Shown here piece after piece: positions 29,501 to 32,781 of a DNA stretch of 64,000 bases. Every line of letters begins with the position of its first letter. Position 1 is the stretch's first letter. The notes under the pieces were generated by a model, which saw nothing but the letters and a program-made list of their open reading frames with translations, was not told the DNA's origin and did no database searches. The stretch is from the NCBI RefSeq assembly GCF_001592745.1, contig NZ_LUKD01000008.1, forward strand, positions 425,545 through 489,544, given 5' to 3'. A program made the translations under genes and the position numbers. This DNA comes from Bdellovibrio bacteriovorus (GTDB taxonomy: Bacteria > Bdellovibrionota > Bdellovibrionia > Bdellovibrionales > Bdellovibrionaceae).

Positions 29501-30530
29501 GAATTTAAAAAATATCACGACCAAACGTACAAGCTCTGCCAGAGCCCTTAATGCGAGATTTAAAATCTGTCTGACGGGAACGCCGATGGAAAACCACTAC
29601 GGCGAATTCTATTCTTTGGTGGATTTGTTGGTGCCAGGCAGTTTAGGTCGCCTTGAAGACTTCCGTCGTCAATTCGTCAATACGGAAATGGTGACTCGAG
29701 AAGAAATTGAAGATCTCAAATTAAAAATGAAGCCTTTGCTTTTGCGCCGGACGAAAAAAGAAATTTTAGATCAGCTTCCGGAAAAACAAGAAACGAAGGT
29801 GAGTATCGCCTTTGAAGACAGACAGCGCGAAATTTATAGAGATATCGCTTTATCATACAATCAGCGGGTTCAAGAAAGCTTATTGACTCAAGCCGAAGCC
29901 AGCGTGCAACTGCAAATGTTGACGGCACTTTTGCGTTTAAGACAAGCTTGTTCGGATCCCGCGGCTCTTCCAAATGTCAGATACGATCGTGTGCCACCGA
30001 AATTGGAAGCCCTTCAAGATTCTTTGCAAGAAGTTGTCGAATCCGGTGAAAGTGCTTTGGTGTTCACGCAGTTTATTCAAACTTTGGAACACACTGTGGA
30101 GTTGCTCAAGAAATCCAATATTCCGGTTTTTGCATTACATGGTGGAGTGCCGACAAAACAAAGACAAAAAATTTTAGCGGATTTCAACGCCACTAAAGGT
30201 GGTGCCGTCTTAGTTATGACCTTAAAAACGGGTGGGGTGGGCCTCAATCTGACGAAGGCCAGCTATGTCTTTCACTTAGAGCCTTGGTGGAATCCGTCTG
30301 TGGAAAACCAAGCCACAGACCGCGCGCATCGTTTAGGTCAAAATAAAGCGGTGCAAGTCTTCCGTTACATCATGCACGAGTCTTTGGAAGAAAAAATTGA
30401 ACTTCTCAAAGGCCGTAAAGACAAAAAGTTTCAGTCCTTGTTCTCAGCGGCGGAAACTGCTGGAGAATTAGGCCCAGGATCAGGTGCTTTAAGCAAAGAA
30501 GACTTCGATATTCTTCTGGGTTTAAAGTAG
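26532..30530 (+). CDS. Large SNF2-family helicase/ATPase with SWIM-like zinc finger
   Basis: A 1332-residue protein starting at GTG with AAGGA eight bases upstream. A zinc-binding motif CxxC...CxH (C86, C89, C99, H101) near the N-terminus is SWIM-like. After a long middle region, the SNF2 core occupies the last 470 residues: DDMGLGKT (K894, Walker A), DEAQ (987-990), LTGTPMENHYGE, RRTKKEILDQLPEK, VFTQF, LKTGGVGLNLTKA and a final HRLGQNKAVQVFRY. Such bacterial SNF2 proteins move along double-stranded DNA or displace proteins from it; the target is unknown. It is a single gene, divergent from the stress cluster. Confidence 0.94.
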   Translation: MFLTPLTLLQISQLRDSGERVPFSEREAYVDGLGLLEDQGLEGYELLSKDEEPLQLLLFFHDAQLNKGVKVRIEEMNYQGALNFSCEFCAQHFPKHENCAHKWAAYVTLWQALTLNENKEENPVLLKLAQDLKSPLFLSQGKTAEARNAIPKDCQLDSLSLILEDHPLLKGSPLNSFLDKDFSKYRLQDINKEKELLSPMLWNMPEVFRKKLTAYSDFYLNEVNEQNRLAGMIRYNFSNGMQVSAKDILRHPLHRVVPRHLLPQKASQTSAFNQWPLTQQKEHLFVSQNLRELEEVVQQLLSTVATQLRQKKIDLYLQTKSTNMRALQIKDIEFDPSTELDWRCEFVERDYLECDFKLVSGTKKNFQFFETVALDPESGTLMVHPWLREWNQLEEVLYSVSQENVTWVHHPGEMPIVSVIGELEAKSVLKYLRSRQIPTKVTGTSVTLSPGQGLIALQLDDKGEFYVEHKARIKGQKDLSRKGFTPRTTLYLQAMSEGLAFLLNADAKDVATRSRLKRDWDLKLLRHLGIIQYLVFEILNHHFDGGTLSDGRKVTKEELFMALHEKVQTLLVSGSGLVLARDMTLEELCSKPVLTNFEDFVRKTFEVLNSSESFYSDQGEVTLEGLVEREFRLIYEMLKEWAISTNGEAFKKSRTSLLSKIWSGDPDADPYLAKGTFHLPSAKKDVPHLHETLETFQALIPFGFQIYFNGQPLQELQEDEFKVDFILQSDDEKRDINWFELNPKFFLRGEEIDPMNMRNFGSGGVIEYQGKLFLVPRKQMPSLRRLENFWLKLQKGKKDSAKKSIGDKVYQLPRHQVLELLALRASGVGIRGDEEWKKLCLFYDSLGQENREIHIPKTIKAHLKPYQLKGVQWLQDLYRLRLGALLADDMGLGKTLQTLTFLEDLRTKEDLGQVLIVVPSSLIFNWQSEVEKFAPELPFRVFTSKDRNNIGKKLELKEDVVVITTYGLLMENEDFLSQYQWKVLIFDEAQNLKNITTKRTSSARALNARFKICLTGTPMENHYGEFYSLVDLLVPGSLGRLEDFRRQFVNTEMVTREEIEDLKLKMKPLLLRRTKKEILDQLPEKQETKVSIAFEDRQREIYRDIALSYNQRVQESLLTQAEASVQLQMLTALLRLRQACSDPAALPNVRYDRVPPKLEALQDSLQEVVESGESALVFTQFIQTLEHTVELLKKSNIPVFALHGGVPTKQRQKILADFNATKGGAVLVMTLKTGGVGLNLTKASYVFHLEPWWNPSVENQATDRAHRLGQNKAVQVFRYIMHESLEEKIELLKGRKDKKFQSLFSAAETAGELGPGSGALSKEDFDILLGLK

Positions 30531-30580
30531 CGGTATTTTTTATTTGACTAAAGAACCTGTTCTGCGCGAAGTTGCCAGGC

Positions 30581-30666
30581 AACTAGGGGTGCTAGCGACC
30601 ATGGGGGTTGCTGGCTGAGAATGACCCTTTGAACCTGATAGAGATAATGCTCGCGCAGGGAAGGTT
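30581..30666 (+). ncRNA. TPP (thiamine pyrophosphate) riboswitch
   Basis: The thi-box consensus is present in order: AGGGGTGCT (30585-30593), CTGAGA (30615-30620), ACCCTTTGAACCTGAT (30624-30639), GATAATGC (30643-30650) and GCAGGGAA to 30662. The closing helix pairs AACT (30581-30584) with GGTT (30663-30666). That helix contains or abuts the ribosome binding site of the ATG at 30667, so TPP would shut off translation start directly. Confidence 0.95.
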
Positions 30667-32781
30667 ATGAATAAGATATCGATGCTGGCGTTCGCCGGTT
30701 TTTTGACGCTCTTTTTTTCCACAAACTCATTTGCTAATGAAACGACGACGACCACTCTGTCAGAGTCGACTCTTTCTTCCGTTATGATTTCAGACAGTCA
30801 AGTGGCGGATTCAGAAGTCAGTGGTTTCTTTGACGTATCGGTCAAAGAACTGCCAGCCTCGCTGCATATTCTATCTGCCAAGAAATTAGAAGAAAACAAT
30901 GTGCAAAGGCTTTCAGAGATCACCACTTTAGATGCCTCGGCGTCTGATTCCTACAATGCCGCTGGGTACTGGGACGCGCTTTCCATCCGCGGCTTTACTT
31001 TGGATAATCGCACGAGCTATTTACGCGAAAATCTTCCCATCAACGCAGAGACTTTTATCGCTCTAGAGAATAAAGAACAAATCGATATCTTAAAGGGCTT
31101 AAGTGGGGCTCAAGTCGGAGTGTCAAGTCCGGGTGGTGTAGTGAACTACAAGGTGAAAAGACCCACCATCAAAGATTTGCGTGCAGTGAAGATGCAAGTC
31201 GGCGAGCAGGGAAGTTTTTTAACGGCGGCTGACGTTGGCGGAAGATTTTCTTCGGCCCCTCAGTTTGGTTACCGAGTGAACCTGGCTCAAGAAAATCTGG
31301 CGCCGGAATTAGAAAATGCAAAAGGCAGCCGTTCTTTGGTTTCTTTTTCGGGTGATTGGAACTTGTCTTCGGCAAGCCTTTTACAGACGGAAGTGGAGTG
31401 GTCTCGCCGTTCCCAACCCAGTCAGGCGGGTTTTAGTCTTTTAGGAAATAGACTTCCGGATCCGGTGAATCCACGACTGAATTTGAACAATCAAGAATGG
31501 ACTCAACCCGTGGTCTTTGAAGGAGTTGCCGGAAGCGTCGGATTAAAGCACAGTTTCAGCTCTTCTTGGAATCTTCAAGCAGTTGCCGGTTTCCAGAATC
31601 TTGTCACGGATGATCGCTTGGCTTATCCGTACGGGTGTTCAGCCGAAAATAACTACGATCGCTATTGCTCTGATGGAACTTACGATCTTTATGATTTTCG
31701 CAGTGATGACGAAAAGCGTGCGACTTATTCTGGAAAAGTGTCTTTCGATGGAGTGCTGCAAACGGCTGCGCTCACTCACAAGGTCAGTGTGGGAGTCATG
31801 ACCGCAAATCAACAAACCCGCGTGCAAAAACAAGCTTACAACTATGTGGGTGTGGGAAATGTCGAAGGCACGGCTCAGCTTCCTCAAGACCCTGCACTGA
31901 CAGATGAAGGAACGAATCGCGATTCGACAACAACAGATGTTTTTATTTTTGATAATCTTAAATACGAAAATTGGAATCTATGGTTGGGCTTACGCCACAG
32001 CATGATTAATCGCGAAAGCATCCGCACGGATGGCAGCCGGGCGGTGTCGCACGATCAGGCCTTCACTTTACCTTGGTTTGCGCTCTCGTATGATTTTGAA
32101 AAACTCATAGCTTATGCCAGCGTCGCTCAAGGTGTGGAATCTTTCGTGACCCCGAACAAAGTGGACTACACGCGTGCTGGCGAGTATGTTCCCGATGTGA
32201 TCAGTCATCAATATGAAGTGGGCCTTCATGGAAACGAAGAAAACACCTGGTTTGTTACGGTCTTTCACATTGACCGACCTTTGATTCTGGATCAAAAGCC
32301 CTTATACCAAGTCGATGGAACGGCTGAACATCAAGGGCTTGAGTTGGGTGGTGAATACCGCCTTTCCAAATGGCTTCTTGAGGGAAGCGCCATGGTTCTT
32401 AAAGCCCGTCGTAAAGATGCAAGTGTGGCAGAGAATCTTAATGATAAAAATCCGATCAATGTTCCTAGTCACACGTTGCGTGCGCAAGCGTCGTACCTAG
32501 TTTCCGACATCAAGGGTCTGACACTTAACACGCGCTTAGTGCAAGAAGGTTCCCGCGCTGTGACCGCCGACAATACTGTGACGTTACCGACGTGGACTCG
32601 CTGGGATGTGGGCGCCTCTTACAACACGGCTATCGCGGATGTGAAAACTCAGTGGCGCGTTTCCGTGGATAATGTCCTGGATACACGCTACTGGAAAGAA
32701 TCACCTGAACAGTACGGGCACTTGTATCTATATCCAGGGCAGGCAAGAACTTTTTGGTTAAGTCTGCAAGCCGCACTTTAA
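30667..32781 (+). CDS. TonB-dependent receptor under TPP riboswitch control, probable thiamine-compound uptake
   Basis: A 704-residue outer-membrane receptor: a signal peptide (to about residue 24), a plug domain (about 55-160, with LSIRGFTLDNRT, LENKEQIDILKGLSGAQVGVSSPGGVVNYKVKRP in split form), and a 22-strand barrel ending in ARTFWLSLQAAL. By itself it resembles siderophore receptors, but the TPP riboswitch immediately upstream indicates thiamine or a precursor as ligand; riboswitch-linked TonB receptors for thiamine are known in Bacteroidetes. No thiamine ABC transporter is adjacent. In a predator it could import vitamin released from prey; that is inference. Confidence 0.93.
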   Translation: MNKISMLAFAGFLTLFFSTNSFANETTTTTLSESTLSSVMISDSQVADSEVSGFFDVSVKELPASLHILSAKKLEENNVQRLSEITTLDASASDSYNAAGYWDALSIRGFTLDNRTSYLRENLPINAETFIALENKEQIDILKGLSGAQVGVSSPGGVVNYKVKRPTIKDLRAVKMQVGEQGSFLTAADVGGRFSSAPQFGYRVNLAQENLAPELENAKGSRSLVSFSGDWNLSSASLLQTEVEWSRRSQPSQAGFSLLGNRLPDPVNPRLNLNNQEWTQPVVFEGVAGSVGLKHSFSSSWNLQAVAGFQNLVTDDRLAYPYGCSAENNYDRYCSDGTYDLYDFRSDDEKRATYSGKVSFDGVLQTAALTHKVSVGVMTANQQTRVQKQAYNYVGVGNVEGTAQLPQDPALTDEGTNRDSTTTDVFIFDNLKYENWNLWLGLRHSMINRESIRTDGSRAVSHDQAFTLPWFALSYDFEKLIAYASVAQGVESFVTPNKVDYTRAGEYVPDVISHQYEVGLHGNEENTWFVTVFHIDRPLILDQKPLYQVDGTAEHQGLELGGEYRLSKWLLEGSAMVLKARRKDASVAENLNDKNPINVPSHTLRAQASYLVSDIKGLTLNTRLVQEGSRAVTADNTVTLPTWTRWDVGASYNTAIADVKTQWRVSVDNVLDTRYWKESPEQYGHLYLYPGQARTFWLSLQAAL

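Follow-up and report, generated by a model that had tools for sequence, protein, structure and literature searches.

Why would the gene of an apparent siderophore receptor be placed under a vitamin sensor? The question is raised by a locus of Bdellovibrio bacteriovorus in which a thiamine pyrophosphate (TPP) riboswitch runs directly into the gene of a TonB-dependent receptor. The locus lies within a stretch of 64,000 nucleotides (nt) of contig NZ_LUKD01000008.1 (positions 425,545 to 489,544, forward strand; assembly GCF_001592745.1), which we call the window and in whose coordinates all positions are given. A preliminary description of the window had proposed this pairing, and our analysis makes it probable that in Bdellovibrio the riboswitch shuts off the gene of a receptor that imports thiamine compounds across the outer membrane. 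Its two central features are the following.

30575-30679, forward strand: TPP riboswitch aptamer (Rfam family RF00059), reported by cmscan above the gathering score, sole copy in the genome, with covariation

30667-32781, forward strand: TonB-dependent receptor of 704 amino acids (aa) with an ATG start, recognized by its Plug domain, TIGR01783, an AlphaFold2 model and Foldseek

The riboswitch is real and not a chance match. It covers the full length of the family model (model positions 1-105) and scores 63.2 bits, above the gathering score of 54.3 (E value 4.6e-10). It is the only Rfam match in the window and overlaps the start of the receptor's open reading frame (ORF). A search of the 3,755,232 bases of the source genome found no second TPP riboswitch, and the receptor would be the one TPP-sensed gene there. 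The preliminary description had begun the riboswitch-receptor unit at 30581, 6 nt inside the match, and had the end of the unit (32781) exactly; it had also reported that all thi-box blocks were present, and the aptamer core is indeed complete, only the optional P3a stem being missing.

To this we can add the record of 25 aligned aptamers, 19 from loci of the genus and six from the nine Burkholderiales riboswitches that score over the cut-off. CTGAGA is invariant in all 25, and the CTGAGA, CCCTT.GAACCTG and CTCGCG..AGG blocks are near-invariant or fully so. A model of 19 base pairs finds standard pairs in 97.9% of its cells and compensatory changes in 32 cells; none of 500 shuffles matched either figure, and the best slid register reached only 62.8%. 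Most of this covariation is carried by P3. In the closing helix P1, which in the alignment to the family model pairs 30581-30584 with 30663-30666, the third pair is A-U instead of G-C in three rows and does not form in six of the 25, the window included in that register; in a shifted register the window's P1 forms four contiguous pairs.

The riboswitch and the receptor gene travel together. Across 39 genomes, 24 of them congeneric (the source genome included), a TPP riboswitch was found in 23, of which 19 belong to the genus, and an ortholog of the receptor in 20, all of them in the genus. In every one of the 19 congeneric genomes with the riboswitch it adjoins the receptor gene, whose start codon follows the GGGAA by 4-82 nt, and the ORFs upstream of the pair differ between lineages of the genus. 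A scan of named genomes yielded 16 receptor loci, 12 of them betaproteobacterial by title (Burkholderiales, with one titled Methylotenera) at 41-50% identity. Nine of these 12 Burkholderiales ortholog loci carry a riboswitch over the cut-off; weaker matches stand at L077 (41.5 bits) and L086 (35.6 bits), and none was found at L084. In a tree of 32 receptors, built with no outgroup, Bdellovibrio and Burkholderiales are cleanly split (support 100/100). That the pair is kept in both groups backs two earlier suggestions, that the riboswitch controls the receptor gene and that it probably does so at translation.

Other observations from this survey concern the surroundings of the gene and the wider order. 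At 11 of the 12 Burkholderiales loci (L073-L081 and L084-L086) the receptor gene is followed downstream by tRNA genes at a distance of no more than about 150 nt, the distance in L074 being about 2.1 kb; the tRNA-flanked site is possibly an integration site tied to the spread of the gene. Elsewhere in the order of Bdellovibrio, the riboswitch precedes thiC in G030 and a ThiB-type gene in G028. In G035, from another family of the order, a TPP riboswitch sits on a second, non-orthologous TonB-dependent receptor (L058, 2587-4623, reverse strand) with a Plug domain and a weak TIGR01783 match, so that outer-membrane receptors may have come under TPP control on more than one occasion. In G031 a TPP riboswitch lies upstream of a protein of 139 aa (L060, 1607-2026, forward strand) that begins like a signal peptide and belongs to no Pfam family; its gene may be a new one related to thiamine.

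Bdellovibrio appears unable to make vitamin B1. Searches of the 24 congeneric genomes found no ThiC (13 of 14 control genomes were positive), no thiamine pyrophosphokinase (TPK; PF04263; seven of 14 controls positive) and no member of the PnuC/PnuT family (PF04973). Weak TIM-barrel matches to the thiamine monophosphate (TMP) synthase ThiE occur in 22 of the 24, at about 20-28.3 bits, the one in G011 being barely above the 27-bit cut-off; these matches were inspected individually in the source genome, where the candidate was rejected as a FabK/nitronate-monooxygenase-like protein. A protein search with Escherichia coli ThiK covered 24 genomes, 16 of them congeneric; it gave no match in 15 of these 16, and the sole congeneric match, a weak one in G013, was set aside as a member of the PRK11768 family of serine/threonine protein kinases. 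ThiL, on the other hand, exceeds its cut-off in 20 of the 24 genomes. Among users of the coenzyme, the TPP-dependent 2-oxoglutarate dehydrogenase E1 is present over its cut-off, and proteins resembling transketolase and pyruvate dehydrogenase E1 beta are best matches under their equivalog cut-offs. On this gene content the cell would need TPP, would have no TPP synthesis detectable by these searches and could finish the step from TMP to TPP. In the published metabolic model of strain HD100 the thiamine pathway is incomplete, and thiamine is not among the required external cofactors that the account lists (PMC7529429).

A check for thiamine transporters elsewhere in the genome, which the preliminary description had suggested, turned up a ThiB-like ATP-binding cassette (ABC) transporter. 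A ThiB-type binding protein exceeds the sfuA cut-off in all 24 congeneric genomes; in the source genome it scores 204 for the sfuA subfamily against a cut-off of 93.4, and its gene heads a thiB-thiP-thiQ-like cluster. The NCBIfam name of ThiP is 'thiamine/thiamine pyrophosphate' permease, and ThiBPQ of the E. coli type can carry both TMP and TPP.

The distribution of ThiL was also compared with that of the receptor. Four genomes (G004, G008, G015 and G017) carry a diverged ThiL-like protein instead, at 100-116 bits and under the cut-off, and three of them are without the receptor. Receptor and over-cut-off ThiL occur together in 19 genomes, the receptor without it in one (G015), ThiL without the receptor in one (G014) and neither in three. 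We gave this association (Fisher p 0.0076) no weight, since the genomes share ancestry and even the four divergent proteins score 100-116 bits.

These elements would combine as follows. At high cytoplasmic TPP, the coenzyme would bind the aptamer of the nascent mRNA, whose P1 and P4-P1 junction would then hold the AGGGAAGG ribosome-binding site beside the AUG and so stop the receptor from being translated; at low TPP, P1 would open, ribosomes would load and the TonB-powered receptor would be made. The receptor would use TonB energy to carry a thiamine compound across the outer membrane, most likely one freed from the prey whose periplasm houses the growing predator, the ThiB/ThiP/ThiQ-like ABC transporter would bring it through the inner membrane into the cytoplasm, and the last step, from TMP to TPP, would fall to ThiL. 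We infer TPP binding, the OFF logic and the cargo, as well as, from the lifestyle, the prey as source.

Which thiamine compound is imported? The preliminary description had spoken of 'thiamine or a precursor', and this range can be narrowed. Precursors such as hydroxymethylpyrimidine (HMP) and thiazole are unlikely, because a cell without ThiC or a convincing ThiE would be unable to join them, and with ThiE missing an intact thiamine compound would be the sole fitting cargo. Within that class, the phosphorylated forms TMP and TPP are about as likely as free thiamine. One version, for which we would claim tentative confidence only, somewhat short of an even chance, is that TMP, TPP or both are released from the prey and pass through the receptor and then the ThiBPQ-like transporter, that ThiL, which is not a thiamine kinase, completes TMP and that the imported product itself shuts the receptor gene through the riboswitch. 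Kinase content favours it over free thiamine, since no thiamine kinase was detected.

The same system may instead carry free thiamine, phosphorylated inside the cell by a kinase that our searches missed, and this comes very close to an even chance. The Bacteroides receptor OMthi acts on thiamine (PMC5613172), which lends the idea a precedent. A missed thiamine kinase is also a real possibility. Sequences of kinases with the aminoglycoside phosphotransferase (APH) fold, ThiK among them, change rapidly, so that a protein-level search with the E. coli sequence can miss diverged ones. Against free thiamine stand the lack of any TPK-family match in the 24 congeneric genomes, the identity of the sole ThiK match as a PRK11768 protein kinase and the substrate of ThiL, which is TMP.

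How the switch would act on the receptor gene can be read from the few nucleotides around its start codon.

30657-30660, forward strand: AGGG, thi-box nucleotides doubling as the Shine-Dalgarno sequence, as indicated by the sequence, the P4/P1 pairing and nine of the 19 genus loci

The AGGG stands 6 nt 5' of the AUG (30667-30669), partly within P4, and the AUG abuts the last base of P1 at 30666. The earlier statement that the closing helix contains or touches the ribosome-binding site is borne out by this layout, the 3' strand of P1 (30663-30666) running straight into the AUG. In nine of the 19 genus loci, the window among them, the AUG follows GGGAA (GGAAA in G021) by 4-5 nt, which sets the thi-box purines at Shine-Dalgarno distance. 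A ribosome-binding site buried in the aptamer core is known as direct translation attenuation, is common among TPP riboswitches and is assigned where the start codon lies no more than 15 nt from the aptamer end (PMC2258182); the window locus, with its AUG directly after P1 and AGGG in the core, has this geometry. In ViennaRNA calculations AGG is paired with or without the forced aptamer and only 30663-30666 respond to it, their unpaired probability falling from 0.30-0.56 to 0; ligand-dependent occlusion of the site is thus no more than plausible. The other ten loci have a separate leader with its own Shine-Dalgarno sequence and a start 46-82 nt further on. Four of these leaders (G011, G016, G019 and G020) hold a segment that can pair with either the aptamer 3' end or the Shine-Dalgarno sequence, as expected of a classical sequestering hairpin, and no more than 4.5% of 200 shuffles pair as strongly with the aptamer; in the remaining six the linker pairs with the aptamer no better than shuffles do. 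Mapped on the receptor tree, the type of platform has changed at least five times, four of the changes being forced by well-supported branches. Translational control of the receptor gene is likely.

The locus also offers a candidate for control by transcription termination.

30684-30699, forward strand: terminator-like hairpin in the first codons of the receptor gene, followed by six T; probably no terminator

This hairpin, inside the ORF, is what termination would have in its favour, but one such hairpin was found where shuffles gave 0.5 +/- 0.8, its T-run is interrupted in G001 and G009, none of the ten separate leaders has five or more T in a row and no antiterminator was seen. We regard termination in place of translational control as unlikely.

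Upstream of the aptamer, the evidence for a promoter comes largely from relatives of the window.

30544-30549, forward strand: putative -35 box TTGACT, a consensus match only

This box was missing from the output of a general search for promoters across 30400-30760. In 14 of the 19 genus loci TTGAC is followed, after a spacer of 16-18 nt, by a hexamer matching TATAAT at four of six positions, and this TTGAC/CATAA-type promoter lies 10-14 nt upstream of the aptamer core, so that the aptamer is where the transcript would be expected to start. The match of the -10 hexamer to TATAAT falls to two of six in the window's clade (G000, G001 and G009) and three of six in G013, and G007 has no TTGAC upstream of its aptamer. 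In the window's clade the -10 is degenerate, GCGAAG/CGAAGT (30566-30572) replacing the CATAA-type box of most relatives. Folding of 30545-30700 gave a strong helix of 30554-30569 with 30651-30666, which we set aside, provided that the promoter sits as in the relatives, because 30554-30569 would then fall between -35 and -10 and would not be transcribed. As a separate observation, the 13 nt TCTGCGCGAAGTT (30561-30573) are identical in three species, those of the window, G001 (L007) and G009 (L019), where 14 of the 19 loci have a CATAA-type -10, and CTGCGCG within them is complementary to CGCGCAG (30652-30658) in the 3' strand of the aptamer; TCTGCGCGAAGTT may be an alternative promoter or a transcribed anti-aptamer.

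Several results weigh against a thiamine importer under an OFF switch. In the folding calculations the AGG of the Shine-Dalgarno sequence forms its P4 pairs whether the RNA folds freely or the aptamer is imposed, and imposing the aptamer costs 2.2 kcal/mol relative to free folding, so that computed energies alone demonstrate no switch. The ThiB-like protein of the source genome scores 193.6 against a thiB equivalog cut-off of 317, and its ThiP- and ThiQ-like neighbours are under their own cut-offs. Riboswitch and receptor are both absent from G004, G008, G014 and G017 (G014 being only 88% complete), and G003 has the receptor with no riboswitch detected even at an E value of 0.01; with the receptor missing in four of 24 genomes and this further case, the system would be dispensable or replaceable. 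ThiC was found in six of eight Burkholderiales genomes tested, so auxotrophy is not required. Finally, those homologs of the receptor whose function is known are siderophore receptors.

This last point leads to the reading in which the protein is a true ferric-siderophore receptor and its TPP control incidental. The receptor has a signal-peptide-like N terminus, an LxTIxV segment resembling a TonB box that is common to its orthologs, a Plug domain at 42.8 bits and a match to TIGR01783 ('TonB-dependent siderophore receptor') of 261.1 bits against a cut-off of 223.5. Its AlphaFold2 model has a mean predicted local distance difference test score of 86.9 and a predicted template modelling score of 0.86, and the best solved matches by Foldseek are FemA, BauA, FoxA and FhuA, with a TM-score of about 0.8. 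Identity to solved receptors, however, is only 13-21% among the 50 matches listed, the linkage of riboswitch and receptor is kept both in the genus and in Burkholderiales, and Bdellovibrio has no detectable thiamine synthesis. The regulation argues against ferric-siderophore transport, and we consider that cargo very improbable; the early warning that annotation by homology would mislead here was sound, the protein passing the TIGR01783 cut-off yet belonging to a pair conserved in both groups. A riboswitch that is merely vestigial or matched by chance, a reading for which the G003 receptor might speak, is scarcely credible in view of the E value, the invariant core and the compensatory changes.

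Two further observations concern the receptor and its locus. Residues 316-351 (P0001) contain a motif around GC(S/T)xxxxxDRxCSDGxxDxYDxRS, whose two cysteines are invariant in 20 Bdellovibrio receptors and near-invariant once those of Burkholderiales are added; the segment may form a cargo-binding extracellular part. The neighbouring genes, an SNF2 helicase upstream and DUF488, AHSA1 and HflX downstream, show no obvious connection with thiamine.

TonB-dependent receptors under TPP control are already known in Bacteroides and predicted in Caldithrix, and what is new here is a Bdellovibrio member with other inner-membrane and kinase partners. In Bacteroides thetaiotaomicron the gene of OMthi (BT2390) is likewise under a TPP riboswitch, and its deletion in a biosynthesis mutant raised the half-maximal effective concentration of thiamine from 2.8 to 15.8 nM; its partners are PnuT and a TPK (tnr3), in one operon in most genomes, in a host that makes thiamine (PMC5613172). 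In Bdellovibrio, by contrast, the gene stands alone, PnuT and TPK are undetected and the genomes encode ThiL and a transporter resembling ThiB. Caldithrix abyssi, a predicted thiamine auxotroph, also has a TPP riboswitch before a putative TonB-dependent receptor (Cabys_3975-3977), but the riboswitch lies 163 nt upstream, the locus includes a symporter and a TPK, and the receptor is reported as BT2390-like (PMC5317091). The inner-membrane partner resembles the thiamine/TPP transporter ThiBPQ in its ThiB-type protein over the sfuA cut-off and its ThiP- and ThiQ-like neighbours, and differs in scores under the thiB, thiP and thiQ equivalog cut-offs; its cluster in the source genome is without a TPP riboswitch, whereas the G028 riboswitch does precede a ThiB-type gene. 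The platform is that of the direct translation attenuation riboswitches of Barrick and Breaker (2007), with the ribosome-binding site in the aptamer core (PMC2258182), and is peculiar in alternating with separate-leader platforms on the same gene. Our literature search found no report on Bdellovibrio that describes either a TPP riboswitch or a receptor for thiamine: the main text of a comparative regulon study does not mention the genus, and its account of the groups Burkholderia and Ralstonia gives no TPP-regulated thiamine transporter genes (PMC3766115), nor does the main text of Karunker 2013 mention thiamin, TPP or TonB.

The locus would thus give a likely cargo to a receptor family filed as siderophore receptors in Bdellovibrio and Burkholderiales. 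The two platforms on one aptamer and one gene could reveal how direct translation attenuation evolves. If the cargo is indeed phosphorylated, a TonB-dependent route for a phosphorylated coenzyme would be hidden under a siderophore-receptor name in both groups. For the predatory bacterium itself, the system would form a specific and testable vitamin link to its prey.
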